From positions 2,844,001 to 2,908,000 of the forward strand of contig NZ_CP137555.1 of the NCBI RefSeq assembly GCF_033723955.1: 64,000 nt of DNA. The letters are read 5' to 3'. The DNA is from Microbulbifer pacificus. GTDB taxonomy: Bacteria; Pseudomonadota; Gammaproteobacteria; Pseudomonadales; Cellvibrionaceae. The position numbers and the translations under genes were made by a program. Of this stretch, positions 27,561 through 57,899 are shown one piece after another (the first letter of the stretch is position 1; every line of letters begins with the position of its first letter). The notes beneath the pieces were generated by a model. It worked only from the letters and a program-made list of their open reading frames with translations, did not search any database and was not told the DNA's origin.

Positions 27561-27672
27561 GGCGGGGTGCCGGGTAGAGGTTTTCAAAAGCGTCGGCGAC
27601 AGGGACGTCGCCGACGCAGCTTACATGGATGTACTTGCAGCGGTTTTGAAAACCTCTACCCGGTGCTCCGCC
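27561..27672 (+). repeat. Structured intergenic repeat, copy A
   Basis: A 112-bp inverted-repeat element. The outer stem pairs CCGGGTAGAGGTTTTCA (from 27570) with TGAAAACCTCTACCCGG (to 27663), extended by GGCGG/CCGCC. Inside are hairpin 1 (GCGTCGGCGAC with GTCGCCGACGC, AGGGAC-type loop) and hairpin 2 (TACAT GG ATGTA) followed by the constant TTGCAGCGG. It belongs to the same family as 40108, 54058 and 57795. It sits in the divergent gap between ettA and the acyl-CoA hydrolase. The plus-strand frame is open and Arg-rich, but this is likely a by-product of the base composition. Confidence 0.88.
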
Positions 27673-27798
27673 GCCACCGGGTCTGCGAAAGAACATACCA
27701 CCGTGCTACCAAAAGCCTAAGGAGGAAAGAAGGAGGTAATGCCACCACCAGCCCATCTATGTTTAACTTTGCCCCAAACCAGACAACCGGGAACCAGT

Positions 27799-28902
27799 AT
27801 GACCCAGGAATCACCCGTCATCGTCGAACGCCAGGGTGCGCTCGGCAAATTGACGCTCAATCTGCCGAAAGCCCTCAATGCCCTCAACCTCGACATGATT
27901 GACCTCATGGCCGCACAACTGGATGAGTGGGAGAGCGACGACAGTCTCGCCTGCATCTGGATCGAAGGTGCCGGTGACAAGGCCCTGTGCGCCGGTGGCG
28001 ATGTGGTGGCATTGCACAGGGAGTCCGGCAGCTATGGCGACGACAAGGCCGGCCAGTTCGTCGAAGACTTCTTCACCCGCGAATACCGCCTCGACTATCG
28101 CATCCACACCTATCCCAAACCCATCGTGGTCTGGGGCAGCGGCATCGTTATGGGCGGCGGTATCGGCATCATGAGCGGCGCCAGCCACCGCATCGTCACC
28201 GAAACCACCCGCATGGCCATGCCGGAAATCTCCATCGGCCTGTTCCCCGATGTGGGTGGCAGCTGGTTCCTGAACCGCATGCCCGGGCGCACCGGCCTGT
28301 TCCTCGGCCTCACCGGCGCCCAGTTCAACGGCACGGATGCGCTTTACTGCGGTATGGCCGATCGCCTGTTGCCTAGCGAAAGCAAAGACCTGTTGCTGAA
28401 TGGCCTCGCCGCACTCGACTTCACCACAGATCCAGCGCAGAACCACGTGCTGGTCAGCAAACAGGTCCAGTCCCTGGAGCTTGCCGCAGATGCACAGCCC
28501 GCACCGAACTTGCGCACCCATTACGACGTGATCCAGGAACTGACCGACGGTGCCACCTTGCCGGAGGTTTACCGGGCGATCGCCGCGTACAGCGGCGACG
28601 ATAAGTGGCTGCAGCGCGCCTCCGCCACCATGCAAGCGGGTTGCCCGCTGACCGCGTGGATTGTGTGGGAGCAGTTGCGCCGCGGCCGGCACATGTCGCT
28701 CGCGCAGGTTCTGCAGATGGAGCTGGCGCTGGCGGTGAACATGTGCAGCAGCGGCCAGGTAAAAGAAGGTGTGCGCGCACTGTTGATCGACAAAGACCGG
28801 AACCCCCGCTGGCAACCGGCGACGCTGGAAGAGGTTACCTGGGAGCAGGTTGAGCGCTGCTTCAAATCACCCTGGTCAGAAAGTCCCCTTGAGGATTTGT
28901 AA
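27799..28902 (+). CDS. 3-hydroxyisobutyryl-CoA hydrolase (enoyl-CoA hydratase/isomerase family)
   Basis: A 367-residue crotonase-fold protein of the ECH_2 group. The oxyanion-hole blocks are GDKALCAGGDV and VWGSGIVMGGGIGIMSGASHR; MPEISIGLFPDVGGSWFLNR carries the Glu and Asp typical of HIBYL-CoA hydrolases. It should cleave 3-hydroxyisobutyryl-CoA in valine breakdown, producing the substrate of MmsB, which is encoded at 34.6 kb. The start at 27799 (MTQESPVIVERQG) fits the family N-terminus; the frame continues upstream to 27739 without support. An enoyl-CoA hydratase role is the main alternative. Confidence 0.85.
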   Translation: MTQESPVIVERQGALGKLTLNLPKALNALNLDMIDLMAAQLDEWESDDSLACIWIEGAGDKALCAGGDVVALHRESGSYGDDKAGQFVEDFFTREYRLDYRIHTYPKPIVVWGSGIVMGGGIGIMSGASHRIVTETTRMAMPEISIGLFPDVGGSWFLNRMPGRTGLFLGLTGAQFNGTDALYCGMADRLLPSESKDLLLNGLAALDFTTDPAQNHVLVSKQVQSLELAADAQPAPNLRTHYDVIQELTDGATLPEVYRAIAAYSGDDKWLQRASATMQAGCPLTAWIVWEQLRRGRHMSLAQVLQMELALAVNMCSSGQVKEGVRALLIDKDRNPRWQPATLEEVTWEQVERCFKSPWSESPLEDL

Positions 28903-28916
28903 GCGCGGACGGTGAC

Positions 28917-28951
28917 ATAAAAAGCGCGGTACCTCTACGGAGATACCGCGC
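28917..28951 (-). terminator. Terminator of the pullulanase gene
   Basis: On the minus strand: TACCGCGC-type arms (GCGCGGTA with TACCGCGC, loop of about 13 bases) followed by TTTTTAT. It ends the leftward starch genes and lies just after the convergent hydrolase gene. Confidence 0.75.
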
Positions 28952-28970
28952 CAGAGGTTACCGCCGTTGC

Positions 28971-31481
28971 TTAATCGCGATAGAGCACGGTAACCGCCGT
29001 ACCCTCCGCCGCCACCGTGCCACTCACCACCCGGCCATTGCCGGCAGCGGGGTCGGATTTTTCCATCGCCACCTTCCACTCTCCCGCCGGCAGGTTGTAA
29101 GTGTAATTGTCGGCACTGTTGTAAATCACGATGACCTCGCCCCAGCTGTCGCCCACCGCCGCGCCGTCGATGTGATTGACCACCACGCCGTAGCGGGGCC
29201 GGTTGCTGGTCATGTGCTGGTCGATTTCATCCCAACTGGTCAGGCGGAACGCAGGATGTGCGCGGCGCAGGGCGATGACGTCCCGGTAGTAGGCGTAAAC
29301 ATCGGCGTTGTCGATCTTCCACTGCCAGTAGTACTGGTTGATCGCGTCGGGAGAATCGTAGCTGTTGTGGTCTTCCTGCTTGTCCCGCATCAGCTCGACG
29401 CCGCCGTGCAGAAACGGAATTCCCTGGCTTGTCAGTACGATGCCATTGGCAAACATCTGTATCCGGCGCAGGTAGCTGCTATCCCGGTTAACACCATTTA
29501 GGTCTGCCCACTGCAGTATCTTGTCACGCAGGGTCAGGTTGTCGTGGGCCGATACATAGTTGATGCTCTGTTCCGGGTCCATGGCAAACATCGGGTCCCA
29601 GGTGTCGATCGCCGTGTCCTTGTTTTTCGTGTAGCGGATGCCGCCACGACTACCGACTTCAATACGCCAGGTGTCGGGGCTGCTGTTCAAGGCGAAGCAG
29701 TCACCGGAATTGCAGCCACCGTTATCGTTCTGCCCCTTGATCGCCTCGCGGAATTTGGGGTTGAACACACCGGCGTGGGACTCATGAATACGACCGATGG
29801 TGCCCAGGCGCACGCGGTAGGGTTGGCGCGAGTCCGCGGCAAACCCGTTCCAAGGTTCGCCATAGATCAGCAGATTTCTATCCGGGAATTTGCCGTTGAG
29901 ATGATTGGCCCAATCTTCCACCTCGTCGTAATCGAAAATGCCGATCAGGTCGAAGCGGAAGCCATCAATGTTGAATTCATCCACCCAGTATTCCAGTGAG
30001 TCGCGGATCATGCGGCCGACCATCGGCACATTGGCGTCGATACTGTTGCCGGTGCCCGACAGGTCGGTGGGTGTGTAGTAGCTGCTGGAGATGGGCTCGA
30101 ATACGGATTTGGCGTAGGTGTGGTTGTACACCACGTCCATGATCACGCGGAGGCCTGCCTTGTGGAATGCATCCACCATCGACTTGAACTCGCGCACGCG
30201 ATTTTCATAGTCGTCAGGCGTCAATGAATAGCGTTCCTCCGGCACGTTAAAGTTGCGCGGGTCGTAGCCCCAGCTGTAGCAACTGGCGTCGGCGGGATCG
30301 GCGCAGGCGTTGAAGTCGTATACCGGCATTAACTGCACGTGGGTAACGCCCAGCTCCTTTAAGTGGTCGATACCTGTTTTTACACCATTAAACGTGGTGC
30401 CGGACTCCACCATGCCCATGAACTTGCCGCGTTTCTGCGAGGACACTCCGGACTCGGGGGCGATGGTAAAGTCGCGCACGTGCACCTCGTATATCACCGC
30501 ATCCTCGCGCTCTGCGAGAGAGGGACGTGCAGACCAGCCGCCTGGCAGGTCGGTGCTGTCGAGATCCATCACGATATTGTTGTCGGTATTCGGCTCCACC
30601 ATCCTGCCGTAAGGGTCGCGAACCGCGACGCCGTTGACGACAAAGTAGTAGGGCTTCAATTTCCAGTCACCGCTGACCGTCACCGAGTAGACATCGGTGA
30701 GTCCATTGGCATCTGCCACTTTGCCCATCGGGTAATTTTGCCCATCCAGTACCAGTTGCACGTTGGCGTGATCCGGGGACCAGAGAGAGAAAGTGGTTTC
30801 CGTCGGTGAATACAGTGCGCCCAGCTCCTGCGGGTTACTGCCGCAGTTTTCCGTGCAGGCCACCGGTTCCAGGGTGTAACCCAGGGTCGCATCGTTGACC
30901 GTCAACAGATAGTTGCCCGTCGCGCTGGTATAGATATCGCTACCGGCCTGCTCCAGCACGCCGTCGCTGTTGTTATCGCCGTAGTTCTGGCTCCAGTCCC
31001 CGTATACATCCAGCTTGAAACGCTGGTTGGCCTGGCCGTCCAAACTGACCTGCAACTGCCATATGTTGTCATCGACCAGTTCCATTGCACTGGTGCCCCA
31101 GCCGTTGGGGGTGCCACGAAAAGACAAACTCGGGAAGTTGCTGTCGGGGCCTGCGGGATTGTCCCCACCACAGCTGGCCACCTCGGTGACCTGGATGGTT
31201 TTGCTGTCGCTGTAAAAAGTGATGTCGTAATTCTTGTTCGCCGCGACGGTGTAATCGGAAGCGGGGTAGGCCTCCTGCCAGTTGGCATAGCGGTCTATCT
31301 TGAAGCGTGGGCCGCCGCTGGCGTCGCCTCCGGAAAACTGCTGGCAGGTTTTATATTGTGTGCCACCGACAAAGGACAGGGCTTCGGCGGACCAGCTGTT
31401 GGGGGTGCCGCGGAAATGCCAGTCGGCGCTGGCGTTTGCACTGGCAAGCAGCAGTGCGGTAACAATCAGTTTTGTTTTCAT
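28971..31481 (-). CDS. Secreted type I pullulanase-like GH13 enzyme with two N-terminal modules
   Basis: An 836-residue starch-debranching enzyme. After a signal peptide (1-19) come two related beta modules (about 20-104 and 116-206; WHFRGTPNSWSAEAL and LSFRGTPNGWGTSAM), a CBM48-type domain (about 220-305), and the GH13 barrel with the pullulanase motif YSWGYDPRNFNVPE. Catalytic residues are D511 (GFRFDLIG), E542 (LIYGEPWNG) and D647 (SAHDN). It should cut alpha-1,6 branches of pullulan, glycogen or starch outside the cell. The start at 31481 was chosen because a signal peptide begins there; an upstream Arg-rich extension is unlikely. It follows the alpha-amylase gene by 72 bp on the same strand, so the two are probably co-transcribed. 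Confidence 0.9.
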   Translation of the reverse strand: MKTKLIVTALLLASANASADWHFRGTPNSWSAEALSFVGGTQYKTCQQFSGGDASGGPRFKIDRYANWQEAYPASDYTVAANKNYDITFYSDSKTIQVTEVASCGGDNPAGPDSNFPSLSFRGTPNGWGTSAMELVDDNIWQLQVSLDGQANQRFKLDVYGDWSQNYGDNNSDGVLEQAGSDIYTSATGNYLLTVNDATLGYTLEPVACTENCGSNPQELGALYSPTETTFSLWSPDHANVQLVLDGQNYPMGKVADANGLTDVYSVTVSGDWKLKPYYFVVNGVAVRDPYGRMVEPNTDNNIVMDLDSTDLPGGWSARPSLAEREDAVIYEVHVRDFTIAPESGVSSQKRGKFMGMVESGTTFNGVKTGIDHLKELGVTHVQLMPVYDFNACADPADASCYSWGYDPRNFNVPEERYSLTPDDYENRVREFKSMVDAFHKAGLRVIMDVVYNHTYAKSVFEPISSSYYTPTDLSGTGNSIDANVPMVGRMIRDSLEYWVDEFNIDGFRFDLIGIFDYDEVEDWANHLNGKFPDRNLLIYGEPWNGFAADSRQPYRVRLGTIGRIHESHAGVFNPKFREAIKGQNDNGGCNSGDCFALNSSPDTWRIEVGSRGGIRYTKNKDTAIDTWDPMFAMDPEQSINYVSAHDNLTLRDKILQWADLNGVNRDSSYLRRIQMFANGIVLTSQGIPFLHGGVELMRDKQEDHNSYDSPDAINQYYWQWKIDNADVYAYYRDVIALRRAHPAFRLTSWDEIDQHMTSNRPRYGVVVNHIDGAAVGDSWGEVIVIYNSADNYTYNLPAGEWKVAMEKSDPAAGNGRVVSGTVAAEGTAVTVLYRD

Positions 31482-31517
31482 CGCTGTTTTCACTTTTTGT
31501 TTTTTATGGAATGGAAG

Positions 31518-31537
31518 GCGCGGCCTGAGCCGCGCCC
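31518..31537 (-). other. Intercistronic GC hairpin between amylase and pullulanase genes
   Basis: GGCGCGGC pairs perfectly with GCCGCGCC around a 4-base loop. No T run follows directly on the minus strand, so it is more likely an mRNA stabiliser or attenuator than a full terminator. Confidence 0.55.
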
Positions 31538-31553
31538 TCAAGTGAAATGGTGA

Positions 31554-34322
<2,769 letters not shown>

Positions 34323-34597
34323 CGCTGGGTACCGTTATTTTTTATTGGATTTATCGGCCGATTGTCACGATACCGCTGTGGCTTTGACGGCTTTTATCTA
34401 GCGTCACCAGACTAGGGCTGCGTGGCAAAACTGCGCATCCTCCCCCACCGGGGCGTAGCGAAAACCGATGACAATCTGGCGTGGATGAGCAATTTGAGTA
34501 AGATGGTGGCTACCCCAAGTCCAAAATAGGAATTGGCCAACGCCATTTTGTGATGGGGTTCACGGAGCGTGTATAAAAAATAATAAAGGTAGTTCTT
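34323..34597. promoter_or_regulatory. Divergent promoter region between amylase and mmsB
   Basis: About 275 bp with no gene. It must hold the promoter for the leftward starch operon and the rightward mmsB. I see no strong palindrome or known operator in it. Confidence 0.4.
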
Positions 34598-35497
34598 ATG
34601 GAAAAGGTTGCATTTATCGGCCTCGGCAATATGGGTGGACCCATGGCGGCGAACCTGGTGAAAAAGGGGTTTGCGGTCACCGCCTTTGATCTGTCACAAC
34701 CGATGCTCGACATGGCGGTGAGCAATGGTTGCAAGCGAGCCGATAGCGCCCATAGCGCGCTGGAAGGCGCGGACGTGGTGGTGTCGATGTTGCCCCATGG
34801 CGAAGCGGTGCGATCCCTGTATCTGGGGGTGCACGGCTTGCTGCAGGGGATGAATCCCGAAACCCTGCTGATTGACTGCTCAACTATTTCTGCCAGCGAC
34901 GCCCGCCAGCTCATCGCCGCTGCCGGTGAGCGCGGGATCGAGGCGCTGGATGCGCCGGTTTCCGGTGGCACTGCGGCGGCGGCCGCCGGCACTCTGTCAT
35001 TTATGTGTGGTGGCGAGGAGAAGACGCTGGAGCGCGCGCGGCCAGTACTCTCGGCCATGGGAACAAATATTTTTCACGCGGGGCCTGCCGGCAGTGGTCA
35101 GGTAGCAAAAATCTGCAACAACATGCTGCTGGCTATCCATATGATCGGCACCGCCGAGGCGCTGCAGTTGGGGGTGGATAACGGGCTCGATCCCAAGGTG
35201 CTGTCGGAAATAATGCGCGCGAGTTCTGGCGGCAACTGGTCGCTGGAAAAATACAATCCCTATCCCGGGGTCATGGAGGGCGTGCCCGCATCGCGGGATT
35301 ATGCCGGCGGATTTTCGGTGGCGCTGATGCTGAAAGATCTCGGCCTTGCCATGGATACCGCGGCCGGCAGTGCTTCCTCCACACCGCTGGGAGCGCTGGC
35401 AAAAAACCTGTACCAGTTGCACGGCGGCGATCCCATCAATCGTGTGCTGGATTTTTCCAGTATCCAGAATCTGTTCCGCCGCCCGGCGGGTGACTGA
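34598..35497 (+). CDS. mmsB: 3-hydroxyisobutyrate dehydrogenase
   Basis: A 299-residue beta-hydroxyacid dehydrogenase that oxidises 3-hydroxyisobutyrate to methylmalonate semialdehyde with NAD in valine degradation. VAFIGLGNMGGPMAANL is the dinucleotide loop plus substrate signature; the catalytic Lys is in GSGQVAKICNNMLLAIHM; DAPVSGGTAAAAAGTL and the late DYAGGFSVALMLKDLGLA block fit MmsB closely. Its substrate is the product of the hydrolase at 27.8 kb. The two valine genes are split by the divergent starch operon. The ATG follows a weak AAAGG site. Confidence 0.92.
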   Translation: MEKVAFIGLGNMGGPMAANLVKKGFAVTAFDLSQPMLDMAVSNGCKRADSAHSALEGADVVVSMLPHGEAVRSLYLGVHGLLQGMNPETLLIDCSTISASDARQLIAAAGERGIEALDAPVSGGTAAAAAGTLSFMCGGEEKTLERARPVLSAMGTNIFHAGPAGSGQVAKICNNMLLAIHMIGTAEALQLGVDNGLDPKVLSEIMRASSGGNWSLEKYNPYPGVMEGVPASRDYAGGFSVALMLKDLGLAMDTAAGSASSTPLGALAKNLYQLHGGDPINRVLDFSSIQNLFRRPAGD

Positions 35498-35591
35498 CTG
35501 CCTGCCCCCACCCGGGGGCGGTGCGCCGATCTGCATTTTCCATTTCTGTCTTCATCCAATTTTTGGTGTTTTTTCCACACACGCAACGCGA

Positions 35592-35605
35592 TTGATTTGC
35601 ATCAA
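35592..35605. promoter_or_regulatory. FNR/Anr box upstream of ompW
   Basis: TTGATTTGCATCAA matches the TTGAT-N4-ATCAA consensus perfectly, 115 bp before the OmpW start. An Anr-type regulator is encoded 2.4 kb downstream. Confidence 0.85.
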
Positions 35606-35719
35606 GCCGTGTTGCGTGGCCCGTGTTTATTCTGCGACAACCTCGAGGCATCGATAAACCAATAACGCAAAAGCCAATCCTCGGGCGAAAAAACAACGAC
35701 TAAGGATTTGGAGATACAT

Positions 35720-36409: not shown

Positions 36410-36453
36410 GCCGCGGGTTCCGGGCGCAACGCCCGGCCAGAATCCGCCGCCCC

Positions 36454-36467
36454 TTGATTGAGATCAA
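36454..36467. promoter_or_regulatory. FNR/Anr box upstream of hemN
   Basis: TTGATTGAGATCAA is a perfect TTGAT-N4-ATCAA palindrome, 75 bp before the hemN start, a usual distance for activation. Confidence 0.88.
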
Positions 36468-36541
36468 GAGGCGGCGGTACATCTCCGGATAATTTTCCAC
36501 TCCTCCCTCACCCGCGATTCAACCCCTGAGGTTTTCTGTCG

Positions 36542-39988: not shown

Positions 39989-40107
39989 AATTGTTACTCT
40001 TTGGTTATTTGTGACCAAAATAGCAAGTGACGATTGCAGTTGCGTTTCAGTTTCATTTCACCTGGCGGATGAATACAGGCTGACGAAGTAGTGTGTCTTG
40101 AATGGAA

Positions 40108-40299
40108 GGCAAGACGGCGGGTATCGGTTTTCAGAAGCGTCAGCAACAGGGAAGTCGCTGACGCAGCGTACAGGGGTTAGGCAAGCGTTTGCGAAGCACC
40201 GCTTCGCGTGCAGCCTAACGACGCCAATCTCTGATTGGCGGCCGGGCCCGCTTGCGGGTATTCATAGCGGTTCTGAAAACCGATACCCGGTGGCTTGCC
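40108..40299 (+). repeat. Structured intergenic repeat, copy B with nested insert
   Basis: A 192-bp member of the repeat family. Outer stem GCGGGTATCGGTTTTCAGAA pairs with TTCTGAAAACCGATACCC, extended by GGCAAG/CTTGCC. Hairpin 1 is GCGTCAGCAAC with GTCGCTGACGC (one A-C mismatch). Hairpin 2 is broken after GCGTACAGGG by an insert of about 80 bp (40176-40258); the sequence then resumes with TATTCATAGCGG. The insert is itself three hairpins. The element lies between the lipoprotein and hugZ genes, both on minus. Confidence 0.85.
40176..40258 (+). repeat. Nested three-hairpin insert within repeat copy B
   Basis: Hairpin one, 40176-40219, pairs GTTAGGC with GCCTAAC and encloses CGAAGC/GCTTCG. Hairpin two, 40223-40239, is GCCAATC TCT GATTGGC. 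Hairpin three, 40247-40258, is CCCGC TT GCGGG. The three other family members have an ordinary short hairpin at this place. Confidence 0.7.
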
Positions 40300-40334
40300 G
40301 CCACTGACCAGCTCAGAACCGCACAATAAAAACA

Positions 40335-47789: not shown

Positions 47790-47798
47790 GAAGGCGCC

Positions 47799-49181: not shown

Positions 49182-49206
49182 TTTTTATTGGTCACTCGAC
49201 CAACCA

Positions 49207-49231
49207 AAACGCGGCTTTCAGGCCGCGTTTT
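49207..49231 (+). terminator. Terminator after the beta-barrel protein gene
   Basis: AAAACGCGGC arm, TTTCAG loop region, GCCGCGTTTT arm with a short T run. Confidence 0.8.
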
Positions 49232-49476
49232 GCATTCTGGGCACTCGGGTCCAGCGGGGCAGCGGGTGCCAGTGACTGGCGCATCTCCCGGGCCCTTCCC
49301 AACTTGAATAAAGCCCGGTGCTGAATTGAATTTGTTTCACGTGCACCCTTTGCACCGCGGGCTACCCCTTGGTGTACAATGCGCGCCTTTCTGGGGCGGG
49401 CCGGTCACAATCAGGTCGGTAAATGCCCTGGTCGAGATTATGCTTGCGCGATCTGCGCCTTATCCGAGGGAATACC

Positions 49477-50742
49477 ATGTTTGATAAATCAGTGACTCTT
49501 GCCTCTTACGACGCCGAGCTGTGGGATGCGATTCAGGACGAAGACCGCCGCCAGGAAGAACACATCGAGCTGATTGCCTCGGAAAACTACACCAGCCCGC
49601 AGGTAATGGAAGCCCAGGGCACCAGCCTGACCAACAAGTACGCGGAAGGCTACCCGGGCAAGCGCTACTACGGTGGCTGTGAGTACGTCGACAAGGTTGA
49701 GACCCTGGCCATCGAACGCGCCAAGGCACTGTTCGGCGCCGACTACGCCAACGTCCAGCCGCACTCCGGCTCCCAGGCCAACGCCGCGGTTTACCAGGCG
49801 CTGTGCGCCCCCGGCGACACCGTGCTGGGCATGAGCCTGGCCCACGGTGGTCACCTGACCCACGGTGCCAAGGTCAACTTCTCCGGCAAGATCTACAACG
49901 CAGTGCAGTACGGCCTGAACCCGGAAACCGGCGAAGTGGATTACGAAGAAGTGGAGCGCTTGGCGCTGGAGCACAAGCCGAAGATGATCGTGGCCGGCTT
50001 CTCCGCCTACAGCCGCATCATGGACTGGGCCAAGTTCCGCACCATCGCCGATAAAGTTGGCGCCTACCTGATGGTGGACATGGCGCACGTGGCCGGTCTG
50101 GTGGCCGCGGGTGTTTACCCGTCGCCGGTCCCGCACGCGGACGTGGTGACCTCCACCACCCACAAGACCCTGCGCGGTCCCCGCGGCGGCATCATCATTG
50201 CCAAGGCCAATGAAGAGATCGAGAAGAAGCTGAACAGCGCGGTGTTCCCGGGCGGTCAGGGCGGCCCGCTGATGCACGTGATCGCGGCCAAGGCAGTTTC
50301 CTTCAAGGAAGCCATGAGCCCCGAGTACAAGGCTTACCAGAAAAAGGTAGTGGAAAACGCCCGCGCCATGGCCGAGACCTTCCTGGATCGCGGCATCAAT
50401 ATCGTGTCCGGCGGTACCGACGACCACCTGATGCTGGTGGACCTGATCGGCAAGGAATACACCGGTAAGGATGCGGACGAAGCCCTCGGCAACGCCAACA
50501 TCACCGTGAACAAGAACGCCGTTCCCAACGACCCGCGCTCCCCGTTCATCACCAGCGGCCTGCGCGTTGGTACCCCGGCCATCACCACCCGCGGCTTCGG
50601 TGTGGAAGAGACCAAGCAGCTGACCAACTGGATCTGCGACATTCTCGACGCACTGGAGAAGGGCAACGCCGACGCGACCATCGCGGAAGTGAAAGCCAAG
50701 GTGCTGGAAATCTGCGCCAAGTTCCCGGTATACAAGGGCTGA
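49477..50742 (+). CDS. glyA: Serine hydroxymethyltransferase
   Basis: A 421-residue PLP enzyme that interconverts serine and glycine, loading one-carbon units on tetrahydrofolate. [65 protein letters not shown] and the PLP-Lys motif [12 protein letters not shown] are all present. The start at 49477 follows CGAGGGAAT; an upstream in-frame GTG at 49423 is not needed. A TACAAT-like -10 hexamer lies near 49374-49379. Single gene with its own terminator. Confidence 0.97.
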
Positions 50743-50771
50743 AACACCTGCCCAGGCTAACCCCAGCCCAC

Positions 50772-50802
50772 AAAAAAGCGACTCCTCGGAGTCGCTTTTT
50801 TT
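50772..50802 (+). terminator. Terminator after glyA
   Basis: Six A, GCGACTCC stem, TC loop, GGAGTCGC stem and seven T. Confidence 0.92.
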
Positions 50803-51142
50803 ATGTCTATTTCGACCACTGCCGTATTTGTTGTTTTTAGCGCTACATCCATTGGTGTCAGATGGGGTCGGTTTGGTCACTTTCCACCTTCTGGCAATTT
50901 GTTAGATCAATATTTCTGTATTTGCCTTTCATTTGATTTTTTATTCGATTTTCAGTGGGTTCGACTGTAGAATTGCGCGCTTATATAGCAAATGTGAATA
51001 AGTCGGTTGTCATTTATTTCGAAGTGCGCATGCTTCTTGCTGCATCGGCGCGCCTCAAAAATTAACCGTGGACAACAAAAAAATCTAATCCACGGCCCTG
51101 CGGTTTTTGGGTCGGAACATTACCTGGCTGTAGGAGAACAAC
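50803..51142 (+). promoter_or_regulatory. Upstream region of the amine oxidase gene
   Basis: About 340 bp without a gene and with an AT-rich block at 50900-51010 that probably holds the promoter. A TAGGAG ribosome site lies before the ATG at 51143. No operator recognised. Confidence 0.4.
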
Positions 51143-52807
51143 ATGCGTAGCCGTAAATCCCTCTCCCCGCTTGCGGGTCTGATGCGACGCCTGGGAGCCG
51201 CTCAGGAACTGGCTGACAAGACCGGCATCTCTTCCGATGAGAGTCTCGATATCATCAAAGAAGGTGCCCAGTATCGAGGTGCAAACGCTTCCGAAGAAGG
51301 GCGTCGTCAGTTTCTCAAACAGTTGGGAATGGGTGCGGCTGCGATAGGTATCGGCGGTACCGCCAGCACTATTTCTGGGCCAGCGCGCGCAGCCCCCGGT
51401 AGCTCAAACCCGGGTCGTGTTGCGGTTATCGGTGGCGGTGTAGCCGGTGTGCGCTGTGCGCATCGCCTGCAGCAGTACGGTATCGCCAGCAAGGTATTTG
51501 AAGGCAACACCCGCCTGGGTGGCCGGGTAAACACCAACCGCAGCATTTTCGGACGCCCGGTAGAGCGCGGGGGAGAATTGATCTCCACTGAGCACACCTA
51601 TGCCCGCAACCTGGCAAGCAACCTGGGGCTGGATGTCGAAGATGTAAACGGCAATGCGGTTCCCGGTGGCAACGAGCTCTACTGGGTAAATGGCCAGCAC
51701 TACACCGAGCACCAGCTGAATGCAGAGTGGCGCGATGTGTACAGCATCTTTAAGCGCGTCCAGCAGTATGTGCCCTGGGTGCCTACCTATGAAAGCAGCA
51801 ATGCCATGCATCGCGACCTCGACTATATCGATGTCAACACCTGGCTGGATCAGGTAGGTATCGGTGCCAGCTCCAACATGGGCAAGGTATTCCAGGCGGA
51901 TATCGTGGCGGAATACGGTATTCAGCCGGAAGAAACCACCGCCCTGAACCTGATCTACCTGCTGGCCTGGAACCCGATCAACACGGCCCTGCCGCTGGCG
52001 GGTACCGACGAGCGCTTCCGCATCGCCGGTGGTAACGACCAGTTGGTGACCCGCATGGTGGAAGCACTGCCGGAGGGCACCATTGAAACCGCGCGCAAAC
52101 TGGTGGCGATTCAAGGGGATATTAACGGCCCGTATAACCTGGTGTTCGAAGACGGCTACGAGTACGCCTGTGATCGCCTTGTGCTGGCGCTGCCTTTCTC
52201 CACCCTGAAAGATGTGGAAATCGACTCCCGAATCTACGACGGCTTCCGTCCGGAAAAGCGCATGGCCATCGAACGTATGGCATTTGGTTCCAACGGCAAG
52301 ATGGCCGTGCACTGCGCATCTCGCCCCTGGACCCAGCCGCAGGTGGTTAACGGTGAAATGTTTACCCCGAACGGTGTGACCTATGTCGGCCGCCCTGAGC
52401 TGTTTGATACCTGGGACTCCACCTCGGTAACCGGCTCTACTGACGGTATTCTGGTGAACTTCTTCGGCGGTAATTACGGCAAAGAAATTGGTAGCGATCA
52501 GCCGTTCGCGGCGCCCACCAGTGCCGACCTCAATCATTTCCTCGGCATCGTGGACAATGTATTCCCGGGTACCAGCAGTGCGTTCACCGGCACTGCAATG
52601 ATGTCCAAATGGGCGGCCAACCCCTGGTCCAAAGGCTCATATTCCACCCAGACCTTCGGTGACTACACCGAGTGGTGGGGCGCGGCCGGCTTGCAGGAAG
52701 GCAATATCCACTTCTGTGGCGAGCACACAGCGCTGGAGACCTTCGGTTATATTGACGGTGCTATCAGCACTGCCGAACGGGCTGCCAAGGAGATTCACCA
52801 GGCCTGA
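51143..52807 (+). CDS. Tat-exported flavin monoamine oxidase family protein
   Basis: A 554-residue FAD-dependent amine oxidase. VAVIGGGVAGVRCAHRL (GGGVAG at 97-102) and RLGGRVNT bind FAD; IHFCGEHTALETFGYIDGAISTAERA is the C-terminal FAD motif. A Tat signal, RRQFLKQLGMGAAAIGIGG (54-72), is set about 50 residues from the start, with cleavage near ARAA, so there is an unusual N-terminal extension. Folded FAD enzymes normally use Tat. It should oxidise an amine outside the cytoplasm. The next gene encodes a polyamine-binding protein, which suggests putrescine, spermidine or a related amine. The 81-bp gap contains a strong hairpin. Confidence 0.87.
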   Translation: MRSRKSLSPLAGLMRRLGAAQELADKTGISSDESLDIIKEGAQYRGANASEEGRRQFLKQLGMGAAAIGIGGTASTISGPARAAPGSSNPGRVAVIGGGVAGVRCAHRLQQYGIASKVFEGNTRLGGRVNTNRSIFGRPVERGGELISTEHTYARNLASNLGLDVEDVNGNAVPGGNELYWVNGQHYTEHQLNAEWRDVYSIFKRVQQYVPWVPTYESSNAMHRDLDYIDVNTWLDQVGIGASSNMGKVFQADIVAEYGIQPEETTALNLIYLLAWNPINTALPLAGTDERFRIAGGNDQLVTRMVEALPEGTIETARKLVAIQGDINGPYNLVFEDGYEYACDRLVLALPFSTLKDVEIDSRIYDGFRPEKRMAIERMAFGSNGKMAVHCASRPWTQPQVVNGEMFTPNGVTYVGRPELFDTWDSTSVTGSTDGILVNFFGGNYGKEIGSDQPFAAPTSADLNHFLGIVDNVFPGTSSAFTGTAMMSKWAANPWSKGSYSTQTFGDYTEWWGAAGLQEGNIHFCGEHTALETFGYIDGAISTAERAAKEIHQA

Positions 52808-52821
52808 TCCGGTCCTACCGG

Positions 52822-52847
52822 CCCGGCGCCGCTGCAGAGGCGCCGGG
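52822..52847 (+). other. Intercistronic hairpin between the amine oxidase and polyamine-binding genes
   Basis: CCCGGCGCC pairs perfectly with GGCGCCGGG around an 8-base loop. No T run follows, so it may stabilise the upstream mRNA or reduce read-through rather than terminate. Confidence 0.6.
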
Positions 52848-52888
52848 TCCGGAAGTTGCACCTGGAATCTGCAGAGCGAGAGTAGACA

Positions 52889-53998
52889 ATGCGTCCAATA
52901 TCCCATGTATTGGTCATCCTGACCGCCGTTATCGGGCTGAATTTCAATGTGCCGGTGAGTGCGCAGACGAAAGAACTGCACTTCGCCAACTGGTCCGAAT
53001 CCATCGCCGAAGACACCATCTCCGACTTCGAGGCCGCCACCGGCATCAAAGTGCATTATTTCGAGTTCGACGATATCGAAGAGCTGGAAGAGGTGTGGCT
53101 GCAAGAAGGGCGCCGCTTCGACGTCATCGTGCCCGGCTCCGACAACATCCCCAAATACATTGCCGCCGGCCAGCTGCAGAAGCTCGACCGCAGCCGCATC
53201 CGAAACTGGTCCCAGAACGATCCCAAATTCATGCAGCGCCTGGCCCTGTTCGACCCGGGCAACGAATATGCAATACCGTACCTCTGGGGTACCGTGGGCA
53301 TTGGCTACAACGTGCAGGCCGTGCGCCAGGCTTTCGGTGGCCGCTTGCCGGAAGATAGCTGGGATCTGCTGTTCGAGCCGGAAAATCTGGCCAAGCTCGA
53401 CCATTGCAACGCGACCCTGATGCGCTCACCGGAAGAGATCTTCGACGTCGCGCTGAAATACCTCGATAAAGATCCCAATTCCATGAGCGTTGCCCACCAA
53501 TACATGGTGGCGAACCTGCTCTCCAAGGTGCGCCTGCACATCACCGACTTTGATTCCGGTGAATACGTGGAAGACCTCGCCAGCGGCAAACGCTGCATCG
53601 CCCACGCCTGGAGCGGTGATGTGCTGGAAGCCCAGCAGCAGGCGAAGGAAGCGGGCAAAACCTTTGATATCCGTTACATCATGCCGAAAGAGGGCTTCCC
53701 GCTGTGGATCGATGTGGTGTCGGTACCCTCCAACGCGCAAAACCTCGACGCTGCCTACCAGTTCCTGAACTACCTGATGCAGCCGAGCGTGATCGCAACC
53801 ATTAGCAACGAGACCCAGTACGCCAATGCCAATATGGCGGCCCAGGATCTGGTGGACCCGGAATTGCTCAGCAACCCGATCGTCTACCCCGGCCGCGAGG
53901 AAATCGAGCGCACCTGGATCCCCGCCGCCACCAACAACCGCGTACTGGCCCTGCGCCACAAACTGTGGCAACGGATTATCGAGCGCGAAGAGATCTGA
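52889..53998 (+). CDS. Periplasmic polyamine-binding protein, PotD/PotF type
   Basis: A 369-residue solute-binding protein. Signal peptide (to about VSAQT), then ELHFANWSESIAEDTISDFEAATGIKVHYFEFDDIEE, the PotF/PotD N-terminal block. RFDVIVPGSDNIPKYIAAGQLQKLDRSRI, NEYAIPYLWGTVGIGYNV and EGFPLWIDVVSVPSNAQN hold the amine-binding acids and Trp residues of the family. No potABC or potGHI genes are near, so it is an orphan in this window. It may deliver amines to a transporter elsewhere or work with the exported oxidase just upstream. Confidence 0.88.
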   Translation: MRPISHVLVILTAVIGLNFNVPVSAQTKELHFANWSESIAEDTISDFEAATGIKVHYFEFDDIEELEEVWLQEGRRFDVIVPGSDNIPKYIAAGQLQKLDRSRIRNWSQNDPKFMQRLALFDPGNEYAIPYLWGTVGIGYNVQAVRQAFGGRLPEDSWDLLFEPENLAKLDHCNATLMRSPEEIFDVALKYLDKDPNSMSVAHQYMVANLLSKVRLHITDFDSGEYVEDLASGKRCIAHAWSGDVLEAQQQAKEAGKTFDIRYIMPKEGFPLWIDVVSVPSNAQNLDAAYQFLNYLMQPSVIATISNETQYANANMAAQDLVDPELLSNPIVYPGREEIERTWIPAATNNRVLALRHKLWQRIIEREEI

Positions 53999-54057
53999 TT
54001 GCGACGGAAAAATCCGAGTCCATTTAGGCTACGAAGTCACTCACCCGGAATAGAAGT

Positions 54058-54165
54058 AAGGGTGCTGGGGATGGCTTTTCAAAACCGTCGTCGCCATGGA
54101 TGGCGGCGCCGGAGCGTACATGGATGTACTCGCAGCGATTTTGAAAAGCCATCCCCAGTGGCCTT
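54058..54165 (+). repeat. Structured intergenic repeat, copy C
   Basis: A 108-bp member. Outer stem CTGGGGATGGCTTTTCAAAA pairs with TTTTGAAAAGCCATCCCCAG, extended by AAGG/CCTT. Hairpin 1 pairs CGTCGCCAT with ATGGCGGCG; hairpin 2 is GTACAT GG ATGTAC followed by TCGCAGCG. It lies between the polyamine-binding gene and nrdR, upstream of the riboflavin operon. Confidence 0.87.
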
Positions 54166-54280
54166 GCGCCACCTCACTCTCGAGTGGTTACCCCTAACTT
54201 TGGGTAGTTCTTGGGCACTACAGGCCTAATTTTTCGCCTTGTGGTAAACTGCCGCCCATTTTCCAAAGGGCCCACTCCCC

Positions 54281-54757
54281 ATGCACTGTCCATTCTGCAG
54301 CGCAGAAGAAACCAAAGTCGTAGACTCCCGCCTTGTCGCCGATGGCGACCAGGTGCGCCGTCGCCGCGAATGCCTGCAGTGCCACGAGCGCTTCACCACC
54401 TTTGAAACCGCCGAATTGCTGCTGCCGCGAGTGGTGAAGCAGAACGGCCAGCGCGAGCCCTTCAATGAAGACAAGCTCCGTGCGGGCATCCAGCGCGCGG
54501 TAGAGAAACGCCCGGTCAGCACCGAGCGGGTAGAAGCCGCCGTTGCCCAGATCAAACACGCTCTGCAGGCCACCGGCGAGCGCGAGCTGCCCGCCATGCA
54601 TATCGGCGAGCTGGTCATGGAGCAGCTGCGGGAGCTGGACCAGGTGGCCTTCGTGAGATTTGCCTCCGTGTACCGTAGGTTTGAAGACGTCAGCGATTTC
54701 AGCGATGAGATCGAGCGCCTCAATACCCGCAAGTCCAAGAGCGAGGAGCGCGGATGA
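54281..54757 (+). CDS. nrdR: Transcriptional repressor NrdR
   Basis: A 158-residue regulator of ribonucleotide reductase genes. N-terminal zinc ribbon with paired Cys ([11 protein letters not shown] and [12 protein letters not shown]), then an ATP-cone domain ([29 protein letters not shown]). It binds dATP/ATP and represses nrd genes through NrdR boxes. It overlaps ribD by an ATGA, so the two are translationally coupled, as is common in gammaproteobacteria. Start at ATG 54281 fits the MHCPFC family start. Confidence 0.97.
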
Positions 54758-55881
54758 GCCCCAGAGAACTGATGGCCCGTGCGATCCAGCTGGCGGAGCG
54801 CGGCCTGTACACCACCATGCCGAACCCCCGGGTCGGCTGCGTGATTGCGGATGCCGAGGGCAATATCCTGGGCGAGGGTTGGCATAAGCGCGCGGGCGAA
54901 GGCCATGCGGAAGTAGAAGCCCTGAAGGACGCTGGCGAGAAGGCCGCAGGTAATATCGCCTACGTAACCCTGGAACCCTGCAGTCACAGTGGCAAGACCG
55001 GTCCCTGTACTGACGCACTGATCGCCGCGGGCGTCGCCAAGGTGGTGTATGGCATGGAAGACCCGAACCCGCAGGTCAGCGGCAAAGGGTTACAAAAACT
55101 GCGCGATGCGGGTATTGAAGTGGAAGGCCCGTTGCTGGAAGAATCCTGCCGCGCGCTGAACCCCGGGTTTATCAAGCGCATGACCCTCGGCCTGCCGCTG
55201 GTGCGCTGCAAGTCGGCGATGAGCATCGACGGCCGCACCGCCATGGCCAGTGGCGAATCCAAGTGGGTCACCGGCCCCGCCGCCCGCGCCGATGTACAGC
55301 GCCTGCGCGCGCGCAGCTGCGCCATTGTCACCGGCGTGGAAACGGTCCGCCACGACAACCCGAACATGAACGTGCGCGCCGACGAAATTGCCCTGGAGAT
55401 GCTCACCGCGGAAGCCGCCGCTGAAAAGCAGCCACTGCGGGTGGTGGTCGACAGCAAACTGCGCACCCCGGCCAAGTCCTTTATTTTGCAGGGCGACGCC
55501 CCCACATTGTTGGTCACCACCGAAGCATCGGACCCGGAGCGCCGCGCGCGTCTGCAAAAGACCGGGGCCGAGGTGCTGGTGCTGCCGGCGGACAAAGACG
55601 GCCGCGTGCACCTGGGCGAACTGCTCAGGGAACTCGCCCGTCGCGAGTGCAACGAAGTGCTGATCGAGAGCGGCGCGACCCTCTCCGGTGCCTTTATGTA
55701 CCAGGCCCATGTGGACGAAATCATCATCTATGTGGCGCCCAAGATTCTCGGTTCCAGCGCCAGGCCGCTGTTTGAGCTGCCGATCGAACGCATGGGCTCC
55801 ATGTTGCCCATCACGATTACCGATATGCGCGCCGTCGGCCACGACTGGCGCATTACCGCGACCACGGATATCGAACGCTAG
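54754..55881 (+). CDS. ribD: Bifunctional riboflavin deaminase/reductase RibD
   Basis: A 375-residue enzyme for two steps of riboflavin synthesis: deamination and reduction of the pyrimidine intermediate. The zinc deaminase domain has [13 protein letters not shown] and [18 protein letters not shown]; the reductase half includes [25 protein letters not shown] and the late [16 protein letters not shown]. It overlaps nrdR at the start and precedes ribE by 13 bp. Confidence 0.96.
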
Positions 55882-55894
55882 AAGGTAACCCGAT

Positions 55895-56557
55895 TTGTTT
55901 ACCGGAATCATTGAAGCCGTCGGCACCATCACCGCGCTGCAGCCGAAGGGCGGCGACCTGCGCCTGCGGGTGAACAGCGGCAAGCTGGATCTCGCCGACG
56001 TCAAACTCGGCGACAGCATCGCCACCAATGGGGTCTGCCTCACCGTGGTGGACCTTCCCGGTGACGGCTACTGGGCAGATGTGTCCGCCGAAACCCTGGC
56101 GGTTGCCAGCCTGAAAAACTGGAAGCTCGGCGACAGGGTCAATCTGGAAAAGGCACTGACGCCCCAGACCCGCCTCGGTGGGCATATGGTGAGCGGCCAT
56201 GTGGATGGCATCGGCGAAGTGCTGTGGCGCAAGACCACCGCCCGCGCCGAGCAGTTCCGCCTGCGCGCCCCGGACGAACTGGCCAAATACATCGCCCACA
56301 AGGGCTCCATCACCGTGGATGGCACCAGCCTCACGGTGAATGCGGTAGATGGCGCCGAGTTCGAACTCACCATCGTGCCCCACACCATCGCGGAAACCGT
56401 GATCGGTGGTTACCAGGCGGGTACGAAAGTGAACCTGGAGGTGGACCTGATAGCGCGCTACCTCGAGCGGCTACTCTTGGGGGATGCCGCGGCCAAGCCC
56501 AAAAGCGACGGACTGACCATGGAATTCCTGGCCCAGCACGGTTTTTACAAAGCCTGA
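55895..56557 (+). CDS. ribE: Riboflavin synthase alpha chain
   Basis: A 220-residue enzyme that dismutates two 6,7-dimethyl-8-ribityllumazine molecules to riboflavin. The protein is two tandem beta-barrel repeats, beginning MFTGIIEAVGTI, with SIATNGVCLTVVDL and RLGGHMVSGHVDGIG in the first and SITVDGTSLTVNAVDG in the second. It starts with TTG, behind an AAGG site; this choice is required by the conserved MFTGI N-terminus. It follows ribD closely and precedes ribBA. Confidence 0.95.
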   Translation: MFTGIIEAVGTITALQPKGGDLRLRVNSGKLDLADVKLGDSIATNGVCLTVVDLPGDGYWADVSAETLAVASLKNWKLGDRVNLEKALTPQTRLGGHMVSGHVDGIGEVLWRKTTARAEQFRLRAPDELAKYIAHKGSITVDGTSLTVNAVDGAEFELTIVPHTIAETVIGGYQAGTKVNLEVDLIARYLERLLLGDAAAKPKSDGLTMEFLAQHGFYKA

Positions 56558-56639
56558 ATATCGTTCGGGTCGATTATCTGTTCCTACGGGAAACACCAGG
56601 TAAGCCCAACAGACTTGCCAAATACGATTTGAGAGAGTT

Positions 56640-57755
56640 ATGGAACTGAACAGCGTTGAAGAACTGATCGACGACATCCGCCAGGGCAAAATGGTCATCC
56701 TGATGGACGACGAAGATCGCGAGAACGAAGGCGATCTGGTGATGGCCGCCGAGCAGGTCCGTCCCGAAGACATCAACTTCATGGCCACCCACGCCCGCGG
56801 CCTGATTTGCCTGACCCTGAGTGCAGAGCGCTGCAAACAGCTCGAGCTGCCGCTCATGTCCCGCGACAACGGCGCCCAGTTCAGCACCAACTTCACCGTC
56901 TCCATCGAAGCCGCCGAAGGCGTAACCACCGGTATTTCCGCTGCCGATCGCGCCCGCACCATTCGCGCCGCCGTCGCCCGCAACGCCAAACCATCCGACA
57001 TCGTGCAGCCCGGCCACATCTTCCCGATCCGCGCACAGCCGGGCGGAGTACTGAGCCGCGCCGGCCACACCGAAGCGGGCTGCGACCTCTCGCGCCTCGC
57101 CGGTTTCGAACCCGCCGCCGCCATCGTCGAAATCATGAACGCCGACGGCACCATGGCGCGCCGCCCGGATCTGGAAAAATTCGCGCAACAGCACAATCTC
57201 AAGATCGGCACCATCGCCGACCTGATCAACTATCGCGCCCTCAACGAGAAAACCGTCGAGTGCGTCAACGAGCGCAAGGTGCACACCGAGTTTGGCGAAT
57301 TCAAACTGCGCACCTACCTCGACAAAGCCCGCCGTGAGCGCCACTTCGCGTTTTACCTCGGCGACTTCAAACCGGAAGAGCCCACCCTGGTACGGGTCCA
57401 CGTCGCCAGCACCCTGCGCGACGTCTTCAGCCTGCGCCGCGGCGACGAGAAATACGCACCCTGGACCTTCCGCAGTGCACTGAAAAAAGTCGCGGAAGAG
57501 GGCAAGGGCGTTGTGGTCGTTATCTGCCACAACGAAACCACCGATGAAATCGAAGACAGCATCGACTGGCTGATCAGCGGCAAGCAACAGCGCCCGAGCC
57601 AGGACCTGGTGTACAAACAGGTGGGCACCGGCTCGCAGATTCTGCGCGACCTGAAAGTGCGCAAAATGCGTTTGATGAGCGCGCCGTTCAAATTCAGTGC
57701 TATTTCCGGCTTCGATCTCGAAGTCGAGGAATACCTGAACGCCGAAGAAATTTAA
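56640..57755 (+). CDS. ribBA: DHBP synthase with degenerate GTP cyclohydrolase II domain (RibBA-like)
   Basis: A 371-residue two-domain protein. The N-terminal 3,4-dihydroxy-2-butanone-4-phosphate synthase domain is intact (DDEDRENEGDLVMAAE, THARGLICLTL, AGHTEAGCDLSRLAG) and makes the four-carbon unit from ribulose 5-phosphate. The C-terminal half is homologous to GTP cyclohydrolase II, but the zinc motif of three Cys seen in RibA is replaced (RVHVASTLRDVFSLRRGD), so that half is probably not a cyclohydrolase. A full RibA is encoded at 61072. Such RibBX-like proteins are known in Shewanella. Repeat copy D follows. Confidence 0.93.
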   Translation: MELNSVEELIDDIRQGKMVILMDDEDRENEGDLVMAAEQVRPEDINFMATHARGLICLTLSAERCKQLELPLMSRDNGAQFSTNFTVSIEAAEGVTTGISAADRARTIRAAVARNAKPSDIVQPGHIFPIRAQPGGVLSRAGHTEAGCDLSRLAGFEPAAAIVEIMNADGTMARRPDLEKFAQQHNLKIGTIADLINYRALNEKTVECVNERKVHTEFGEFKLRTYLDKARRERHFAFYLGDFKPEEPTLVRVHVASTLRDVFSLRRGDEKYAPWTFRSALKKVAEEGKGVVVVICHNETTDEIEDSIDWLISGKQQRPSQDLVYKQVGTGSQILRDLKVRKMRLMSAPFKFSAISGFDLEVEEYLNAEEI

Positions 57756-57794
57756 TCGGTTAGGTAAAACTCAAACCTGCAAATCGAAGGTGAC

Positions 57795-57899
57795 GTGCCG
57801 GGGCGAGCTTTTCAGGACCGTCGCAAACAGGGATGTTTGCGACGGAGCGTACAGGGATGTATTCACAGCGGTCCTGAAAAGCTCGCCCCGGTGCGGCAC
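57795..57899 (+). repeat. Structured intergenic repeat, copy D
   Basis: A 105-bp member with the longest perfect stem: CGGGGCGAGCTTTTCAGGAC pairs with GTCCTGAAAAGCTCGCCCCG, extended by GTGC/GCAC. Hairpin 1 is CCGTCGCAAACA with TGTTTGCGACGG; hairpin 2 is GTACA GGGA TGTAT followed by TCACAGCGG. It separates ribBA from ribH, so it could divide the riboflavin genes into two units or lie inside one mRNA. Confidence 0.9.

Follow-up and report, generated by a model that had tools for sequence, protein, structure and literature searches.

An Old Mobile Palindrome in Microbulbifer pacificus May Supply a Family of Regulator-Binding RNAs

Elements in the Window

The window, a 64,000-nucleotide stretch of the Microbulbifer pacificus genome, holds four intergenic elements (Table 1) among genes called from codon usage in this analysis. 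A first-pass annotation had located these elements correctly, and the common plan it described is borne out: an outer stem with complementary arms, hairpin 1 (H1), hairpin 2 (H2) and a CAGCG-type linker. Its claim that every copy carries GGA in H2 holds for R1, R3 and R4 and fails for R2. All four copies fold much more stably than shuffled sequences (z = -8.2, -6.6, -9.5 and -6.8). An Rfam scan of the window at gathering threshold returned 0 matches to any family, including RsmX/Y/Z-type sRNAs and TwoAYGGAY.

Table 1. Palindromic elements of the window and their parts (window coordinates)
Element	Span	Strand	Outer arms	H1	H2	Setting
R1	27555..27679	+	~27561-27589 / 27644-27673	27590-27617, loop AGGGAC 27601-27606	27622-27633, loop ATGGAT 27625-27630	covariance-model match; between a divergent gene pair, EttA (-) and a 3-hydroxyisobutyryl-CoA hydrolase-family gene (+)
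R2	40102..40306	+	~40108-40136 / 40271-40299	40137-40164, loop AGGGAA	split by ~80-nt insertion with its own hairpins; GGA lost	antisense to its neighbors on either side; located 3' of a HutZ/HugZ-like gene (match below curated cut-off)
R3	54050..54174	+	~54058-54084 / 54139-54166	54085-54112, loop ATGGAT 54096-54101	54116-54129, loop ATGGAT	PotF-like gene (match below curated cut-off) on one side, nrdR on the other
R4	57783..57907	+	~57789-57817 / 57872-57899	57818-57845, loop AGGGAT 57829-57834	57849-57861, loop AGGGAT	gap between ribBA and ribH

Family, Fold and Loops

A covariance model built from the four copies gave 95 matches across the genome at E-values up to 0.1, which are to be read as rough, and a second covariance model also found 95 copies. 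The family therefore numbers at least 95 in this 4.19-Mb genome, and its members are diverged from one another. The H2 core pattern (at most 1 mismatch) occurs 44 times, and the reversed pattern 0 times. Our copy list (n = 96) combines the 95 model matches, less 5 opposite-strand doubles, with 6 copies from fetched loci. With 57 of these on the plus and 39 on the minus strand, the shared orientation seen in the window does not extend to the genome. The replication-strand bias that the annotation had suggested looking for is likewise missing among 52 single copies (23 with the fork, 29 against). The modeled unit spans 125 bp and is flanked by partly conserved tails, GCTTACGAAGT... and ...CAGCTTCAGAGCAC.

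Each copy consists of a long outer stem enclosing two hairpins. In 88 copies, paired cells reach 96.3%, compared with 73.1% in shuffles, and the covariation score is 0.629, compared with 0.187 after shuffling and at most 0.106 after sliding. The annotation had made its case depend on further copies and on matched changes in the arms; copies were found genome-wide, and the arm changes are matched across the 88 copies, with a matched double change at 41 of 44 pairs. Structure is thus kept over stem sequence, as had been proposed. The TTTTCA/TGAAAA segment, described as constant, is common across the family yet not invariant.

A(N)GGA occupies both loops in 83 of 95 copies and one loop only in the remaining 12, R2 among them. 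Of the 83 two-loop copies, 80 place their GGA motifs 23-24 nt apart, a spacing that would suit one CsrA/RsmA dimer. The A(N)GGA (CsrA/RsmA) type of both constant loops does not appear in the first-pass annotation. Among the 95 copies, H2 loops read ACAGGGATGT (24), ACAGGGACGT (13) and ACATGGATGT (5), and others carry CC...GG instead: CCAGGGATGG (19) and CCATGGATGG (13).

Distribution

The core is common to many gammaproteobacterial genera. Copy number is patchy: G039, the closest relative among the genomes searched, holds 132 copies, and matches per genome within the genus range from 0 to at least 92, the maximum number of candidates scored. In a survey of the class under stricter filters, 52 of 274 genomes, our own included, gave a match, and the element is therefore dispensable. 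Scoring in each genome was limited to 16 candidates for the class survey and to 15 for the phylum survey, both under these stricter filters. Pattern scans found at least 120 stretches in contigs, 80 of them among the matches listed, and 3 viral contigs. Eighteen gammaproteobacterial loci compared with Rfam at gathering threshold showed no family at the element.

The gamma-wide pattern search put no constraint on H1. In the 83 of 86 rows usable for the loop test, to which no A(N)GGA filter was applied, the H1 loop nevertheless contains GGA in 72, against a mean of 9.8 and a maximum of 18 in 100 shuffles. A further covariance model was built on an alignment of 70 of the 86 rows, selected for sufficient flank and an H1 with A(N)GGA, and six loci were removed by hand.

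The Selected Strand

On the GGA strand, the outer stems of 88 copies contain 52 GU/UG and only 3 AC/CA pairs, two conserved tandem-GU columns being excluded. With GU and AC given the same score, the counts were 183 versus 14 in our 96 copies, here with the tandem-GU columns, and 89 versus 15 in the many-genera set (69 of 86 copies). Among 31 ortholog pairs that have few double changes, GU changes again outnumber AC changes, 23 to 6 (p = 0.002). In 78 of 90 copies, the GGA strand folds more stably than its complement. The excess of GU over AC suggests that selection acts on the folded GGA strand, whether as RNA or as single-stranded DNA. Of the three options offered by the annotation, the mobile hairpin agrees with the family evidence and a structured molecule survives as one folded strand (RNA or single-stranded DNA), whereas a cruciform target that is alike on both strands is disfavored by the asymmetry.

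Covariation could also arise without selection on the fold, if template switching in a quasi-palindrome copied one arm onto the other. The ortholog comparison fits such DNA-level correction in that double changes number 342, against one-sided changes of 56 GU, 15 AC and 58 other, and arm blocks change as units. Correction, however, treats the strands alike, so that equal numbers of AC and GU are expected; since GU is in large excess, correction as the sole cause appears very improbable. With the wobble asymmetry, one can ask cheaply on which strand of a palindromic repeat the fold is under selection, and the answer matters for YPAL-like and other bacterial repeats.

Mobility and Age

We call the element mobile because it forms a dispersed multicopy family, shares the order of parts of the Yersinia repeat RU-2, and has a same-core relative that spread recently. 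The copies are mostly old, since at least 71 of our 95 lie at the matching place in G039; as a share of the 76 assessed, this number is biased upwards, because the G039 loci were taken around that genome's own copies. Five places in G039 are without a matching copy: three retain one or both element tails and resemble interior deletions, and two are ambiguous. The G039 nrdR site is empty, without a clean alignment.

We rejected the idea of fresh arms at each insertion, since orthologs at the nrdR site share the core and differ by matched pair changes, as expected if resident arms are altered where they stand; elsewhere, modules have been exchanged between copies. A second rejected source of the variable arms is entry of the core into short GAAGG...CCGCCAC hairpins that were already there. 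Such short forms exist in G039 at two sites (L373 and L360). Scanning the fetched loci yielded 29 and 37 matches in the two genomes; because the best 25 of each included hardly another free short hairpin, the short forms look like interior deletions as well. Carriage by phages or plasmids was also rejected, within the reach of the search: blastn (E 0.01), which is weak for short diverged sequences, matched R4 to neither and matched a copy from a Lysobacterales MAG to no plasmid.

A relative with the same core has multiplied recently in genome G301. Its units of ~162 bp, read at 12 unrelated places, match L408 at 88-99% and end in TATACC...GGTATA; the Microbulbifer flanks examined are without such ends. 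This recent multiplication and the patchy copy number between genomes would suit a purely selfish mobile element, in which a mobilizing enzyme would read the GGA strand as single-stranded DNA (or RNA), with the loops and linker as its marks and no role for CsrA. A mobilizing gene was not found, DDE_3 (PF13358), the only transposase family searched, being absent from G301; moreover, the resident copies hardly move, yet the ortholog changes favor GU all the same. We regard this reading as a real possibility that is on balance doubtful.

Position Relative to Genes

The copies lie at a median of 40 nt on the stop side (82 of 124 at 60 nt or less) and 69 nt on the start side (26 of 66 at 60 nt or less). 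They are without orientation bias: 34 of 95 are sense to both neighbors, and 28 of 95 are antisense to both. Divergent gaps are avoided (2 of 60), in a table of gap classes drawn from fetched, element-rich loci that were picked for holding copies. Other intergenic repeats show the same avoidance (PMC2718517), which counts in favor of the selfish element.

The GU excess is 18 to 1 in the antisense group and 24 to 2 in the sense group. Because it is equally present in the antisense group, read-through of mRNA alone is insufficient to account for it. A function in mobility could explain the excess, and the fact that GU excess and intact loops persist regardless of gene orientation counts in favor of the selfish element. 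Roles in stabilizing, processing or terminating transcripts have been proposed for REP, ERIC and YPAL repeats. Here too the stem might act after stop codons as an mRNA 3'-end element, with the GGA loops incidental, and both the proximity to stops and the very high stability of the stems agree with this. Given the absent orientation bias, we rejected a host mRNA element that works only in sense. About equal use of sense and antisense, the lack of a consistent T-run 3' of the stem (flanks judged by eye, a few copies having one) and the conserved loop letters, left without a reason, make the broader 3'-end reading improbable.

A Candidate CsrA/RsmA Ligand

A(N)GGA is the published core of CsrA/RsmA sites (PMC4066749), which speaks against a purely selfish element. 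PMC7937890 cites the SELEX consensus as RUACARGGAUGU, presented in hairpin loops; H2 of R4 fits it exactly and other copies fit in part. In Pseudomonas putida, RsmA, RsmE and RsmI are reported to share several intergenic RNA targets beside ISPpu8 copies or its potential insertion sites, and the entry for one of these, likened to our element by description only, reads "long palindromic region" (PMC7937890). The genome of M. pacificus contains one csrA gene.

We propose tentatively, at slightly less than an even bet, that this mobile palindrome gives rise to RNA that serves as a CsrA/RsmA ligand. In this reading the four window elements are copies of an old, non-autonomous mobile palindrome of the YPAL/RU-2 type. 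One strand folds, as structure prediction, covariation and wobble asymmetry show, so that the long outer stem displays two A(N)GGA loops at near-constant spacing. Some copies at least would yield a transcript of this strand, whose two loops would be held by one dimer of the single CsrA/RsmA protein of the host, and the copies would jointly constitute a dispersed CsrA-binding RNA that offers docking sites in 3' UTRs and works as a decoy. Loops and fold would be preserved by selection on the bound RNA, while stem letters drift in matched pairs and modules swap between copies.

Several observations run counter to this proposal. In the known CsrA targets analyzed in PMC4066749, one site lies close to the ribosome-binding site; most Microbulbifer copies are closer to stops than to starts. 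The copies antisense to both neighbors, the single GGA loop of R2 and 11 others, the small share of class genomes with a match, and the opposite-strand position of the one Rfam trace (Ysr224, below) are further counterarguments. Outside A(N)GGA, the H2 loops of many copies stray from the SELEX consensus, which lowers the standing of the CsrA reading slightly and raises that of its selfish rival.

It is rather unlikely, although conceivable, that mobile palindromes spread a ready CsrA/RsmA ligand throughout the class, as a genomic sponge arising from a selfish element with the folded GGA-strand RNA selected. In that case the decoy or docking sites scattered over a carrier genome could reach a hundred or more. 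If CsrA/RsmA binds the copies, this global regulator would owe hundreds of its sites to a mobile repeat, whose copy number would be a hidden variable of the regulatory system in many genera. A literature search, mostly confined to papers outside subscription, returned the RU-2 and P. putida Rsm papers but no description of a link between such palindromic repeats and CsrA/RsmA.

Comparison with Known Systems

Sponge RNAs of the RsmX/Y/Z and CsrB/C types carry several A(N)GGA hairpin loops per RNA (PMC5864184, PMC4333381), whereas the Microbulbifer family has two sites per copy and ~100 dispersed copies; at least two such hairpin-loop motifs, as in CsrA/RsmA ligands, are present in the 83 two-loop copies. 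The TwoAYGGAY motif (RF01731) is a predicted sRNA of Clostridia for which CsrA binding is likewise predicted (PMC4333381).

Among repeats, REPs are palindromes of 20-40 bp (PMC3733652), a size exceeded by the 125-bp, two-hairpin Microbulbifer unit. REPs and the R0 and R2 repeats of P. fluorescens, the latter likened by description, resemble our family in being intergenic, biased to tail-to-tail gaps and few in head-to-head gaps (PMC2718517). ERIC/RU-1 and TA-ended bacterial MITEs share size class, intergenic location and palindromic form with our family, again by description only. The G301 relative has the TA-type ends and, as a MITE would, many near-identical short copies at unrelated sites.

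The closest counterpart is YPAL/RU-2, the Yersinia palindromic sequence (~168 bp), which is also intergenic and multicopy and is reported from Yersinia and Erwinia, where duplicated target sites of 3-26 bp occur next to dyad symmetry (PMC2759123, PMC2229807). The accessible portions of these two papers do not mention CsrA-type loops. Rfam Ysr224, a Yersinia sRNA used as a YPAL proxy, gave a subthreshold hit to R4 only, on the opposite strand and at 19.6 bits against a gathering threshold of 70. Outer stem, tails and ends differ between the two families. RU-2 as printed (PMC2759123) has the same order of parts: outer arm, GGA hairpin GCGCC-AAGGAT-GGCGC, GGA hairpin TACATGGATGTA, TTTACGGCG linker and outer arm. 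When we folded RU-2, its GGA strand was the more stable one and adopted the same fold as the Microbulbifer copies, which share its double GGA hairpin core within a long inner inverted repeat. The family also connects a Yersinia repeat to unnamed repeats of marine, soil and methane-oxidizing bacteria.

Copies in the Window and in the Genome

The repeat family represented in the window is large, old, structured and strand-polarised, with two strongly conserved GGA loops. The first-pass annotation had placed four elements (R1–R4) at positions that proved right when the window sequence was re-read, and their proposed common plan is borne out by the alignment, in which a long outer arm and its matching partner enclose hairpins H1 and H2 and a short linker, with AAG(G) at the 5′ side and CGCCAC after the matching 3′ arm. 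The fold stability of each element is far above that of shuffled sequence. The insertion within H2 of copy R2 is common to one other copy in the same genome (position 2128195). One copy in G039, the closest relative among the genomes searched, has a length of 205 bases, equal to that of the copies with the H2 insertion.

Copies of the repeat family, their neighbours and related features
Feature	Location	Strand	Description	Basis
R1	window 27555-27679	+	neighbours EttA / 3-hydroxyisobutyryl-CoA hydrolase-family gene	NCBIfam
R2	window 40102-40306	+	on 3′ side of HutZ/HugZ-like gene	NCBIfam, below cut-off
Insertion in H2 loop of R2	window 40168-40259		~80 nt, own hairpins	
R3	window 54050-54174	+	neighbours PotF-like gene (below cut-off) / nrdR	NCBIfam
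R4	window 57783-57907	+	neighbours ribBA / ribH	NCBIfam
Insertion-bearing / 205-base copies	L082:2996-3200; L355:1912-2116			
Inverted pair, L066 site	L066:3016-3140 + 3202-3326		G039 counterpart L349:1921-2045 + 2106-2230	
GGGGGGCGCCTAGC-like linker insertion	L105:3016-3153; L102:2973-3110		after H2	

A covariance model built from the four elements confirmed that further copies exist, with 95 matches in the genome (E up to 0.1); removal of 5 opposite-strand doubles and addition of 6 copies gave our list of 96. A second model, built from 88 copies, returned 95 once doubles were removed. The H2 core occurs 44 times with at most one mismatch, and the pattern read backwards 0 times. The copies are divided 57 vs 39 between the strands, and none overlaps a gene call by more than 30 nt. 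Their density drops with distance from dnaA (29, 22, 20, 13, 8 and 4 per 0.35 Mb); dnaA lies at C1:2193482, with the densest copies nearby and the fewest on the opposite side of the chromosome. The matched arm changes described for the four elements hold for the family at large: among 88 copies, 41 of 44 pairs show at least one double change, 96.3% of cells pair (73.1% when shuffled), and the covariation score is 0.629, as compared to 0.187 shuffled and at most 0.106 slid.

Inverted pairs no more than 700 bp apart number 21, 17 outward-facing and 4 inward-facing. This genome and G039 seem to have the pair at the L066 site swapped, as by inversion of the segment. In L148 and others (table), the linker that follows H2 carries a short GGGGGGCGCCTAGC-like insertion, which also distinguishes L147 from L148 at the rib site, where their arms are equal.

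Spread and Mobility in Other Genomes

By similarity the window belongs to Microbulbifer, since locus L187, from an uncultured Microbulbifer, shows 83.5% identity over 4963 bases. The 88-copy model found matches in 26 of 38 genomes, own included, with 0 to 92 per genus member when at most 92 candidates were scored. A model of the gammaproteobacterial core found matches in 52 of 274 class members, and a draw across the phylum gave 16 of 299 (own included in both), all 16 within the same class or closer. Scanning genome contigs with a pattern of H2 plus linker gave at least 120 stretches; where the titles of the 80 listed matches name a group, we take all to be gammaproteobacterial, the genera including Marinobacter, Halomonas, Microbulbifer, Stenotrophomonas, Methylotuvimicrobium, Rheinheimera, Idiomarina and others. 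By blastn at E 0.01, copy R4 had no match in plasmids or phages, and neither did a Lysobacterales copy in plasmids. The pattern scan of viral contigs returned 3 contigs.

Elsewhere, a relative that carries the core has spread recently. In genome G301, a unit of ~162 bp with TATACC...GGTATA ends stands between unrelated flanks at the 12 places read, the units being 88–99% alike to the one at L408. The pattern finds the H2 core in 10 of 12; one unit has no pattern match and L418 falls outside the pattern. Loci L408–L418 hold this recently multiplied core-bearing unit. A DDE_3 transposase was looked for in G301 and none was found. Loci L419–L423 (genomes G119 and G087) show many matches of equal score, several at contig ends, which suggests recent amplification there as well.

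Evolution in Place

For 76 of the 95 copies, the G039 loci that were fetched contain both flanks; 71 of the 76 have a same-orientation G039 copy. In the outer stem, with tandem-GU columns left out, the 71 ortholog pairs show 342 two-sided Watson–Crick changes; one-sided changes lead to or from GU in 56 cases, AC in 15 and others in 58. The 31 pairs with no more than 3 double changes give a GU:AC count of 23 to 6 (p = 0.002); their two-sided changes number 34. Many pairs differ by whole modules, in that a 6-bp arm block or the type of H1 or of H2 is swapped as a unit, which looks like exchange between copies; L070:15447 and L360:14466, for example, differ in H1 and H2 types with no double change in the outer pairs.

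The nrdR-site copies of four species agree in the core and have the arms GATGGC, GAGGGC, GAGGGC and TAGGGC. The partner arms match in three, and the second GAGGGC copy has a mutated 3′ arm. G039 has no copy at this site. Five further G039 sites are without a matching copy, and three of these retain an element tail on one side or on both, as would remain if the hairpin interior had been deleted. Of 30 fetched ribBA–ribH gaps, 14 hold a copy, with arms that differ among most of them, 15 hold none and 1 was unreadable. This gap seems to attract repeats, since other palindromic repeats occupy it in other genus members (L155, L161, L162 and L149, by eye unlike the R1–R4 family).

GGA Loops and Strand Polarity

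Both loops carry A(N)GGA in 83 of 95 own copies, H1 only in 6, H2 only in 6 and neither in 0; the two GGA motifs of the 83 are 24 nt apart in 62 and 23 nt in 18. In the genome-contig scan, whose pattern leaves out H1, GGA lies in the H1 loop of 72 of 83 usable copies (shuffles average 9.8). Double changes are kept in 22 of 25 predicted pairs among 70 selected copies. The RNA-binding regulator CsrA/RsmA prefers RUACARGGAUGU in hairpin loops, as quoted in an excerpt of PMC7937890, and H2 of R4 fits this consensus exactly. The 95 own H2 loops comprise ACAGGGATGT (24), CCAGGGATGG (19), ACAGGGACGT (13), CCATGGATGG (13), ACATGGATGT (5) and rarer forms, so that loop-adjacent bases are more variable than the SELEX consensus while A(N)GGA is kept.

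Folded RNA tolerates G-U pairs, and single-stranded DNA accepts them better than A-C. Therefore, the GU:AC ratio on one strand reports whether that strand is kept folded. Under a DNA process that is strand-symmetric, the two numbers would be equal. On the GGA strand, which shows the A(N)GGA loops, the count is 52 to 3 (88 copies, two columns of conserved tandem UG/GU left out). When pairing was ungapped and GU and AC were given equal scores, the count was 183 to 14 for the 96 own copies, with the tandem columns counted, and 89 to 15 for a set of 69 from many genera. The 88-copy model gave 59 to 8 in 95 own copies and 84 to 20 in 132 G039 copies. The asymmetry is weaker in the H2 model pairs (61 GU/UG vs 22 AC/CA cells). 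By gene context, the ratio is 24 to 2 for copies sense to both neighbours, 18 to 1 for those antisense to both, 16 to 3 in convergent gaps and 1 to 2 in two divergent-gap copies.

Our best reading, a tentative one, is that CsrA/RsmA binds RNA of the family. The GGA strand would be transcribed, its RNA would be bound by CsrA/RsmA and the bound copies may exert a regulatory effect. The strongest evidence against CsrA/RsmA binding is the absent orientation bias, which a function in mobility explains more simply; that the folded strand serves mobility alone is, in our judgement, somewhat less probable than CsrA/RsmA binding.

Comparison with Known Systems

The sole Rfam trace is a weak match of R4 to Ysr224 on the opposite strand. 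The Yersinia repeat RU-2/YPAL, in the sequence excerpted from PMC2759123, resembles the family in that it folds into an outer stem with two A(N)GGA hairpins, and a fold of the printed sequence is more stable on the GGA strand (-68.1 vs -59.4 kcal/mol). The part of a review consulted (PMC2229807) calls YPAL mobile and gives it duplications of 3–26 bp and target sites next to dyad symmetry. As regards CsrA/RsmA binding, sections of PMC7937890 report that in P. putida all three Rsm proteins target intergenic sequences next to copies of ISPpu8 or to its potential insertion sites, and list one of these as a long palindromic region.
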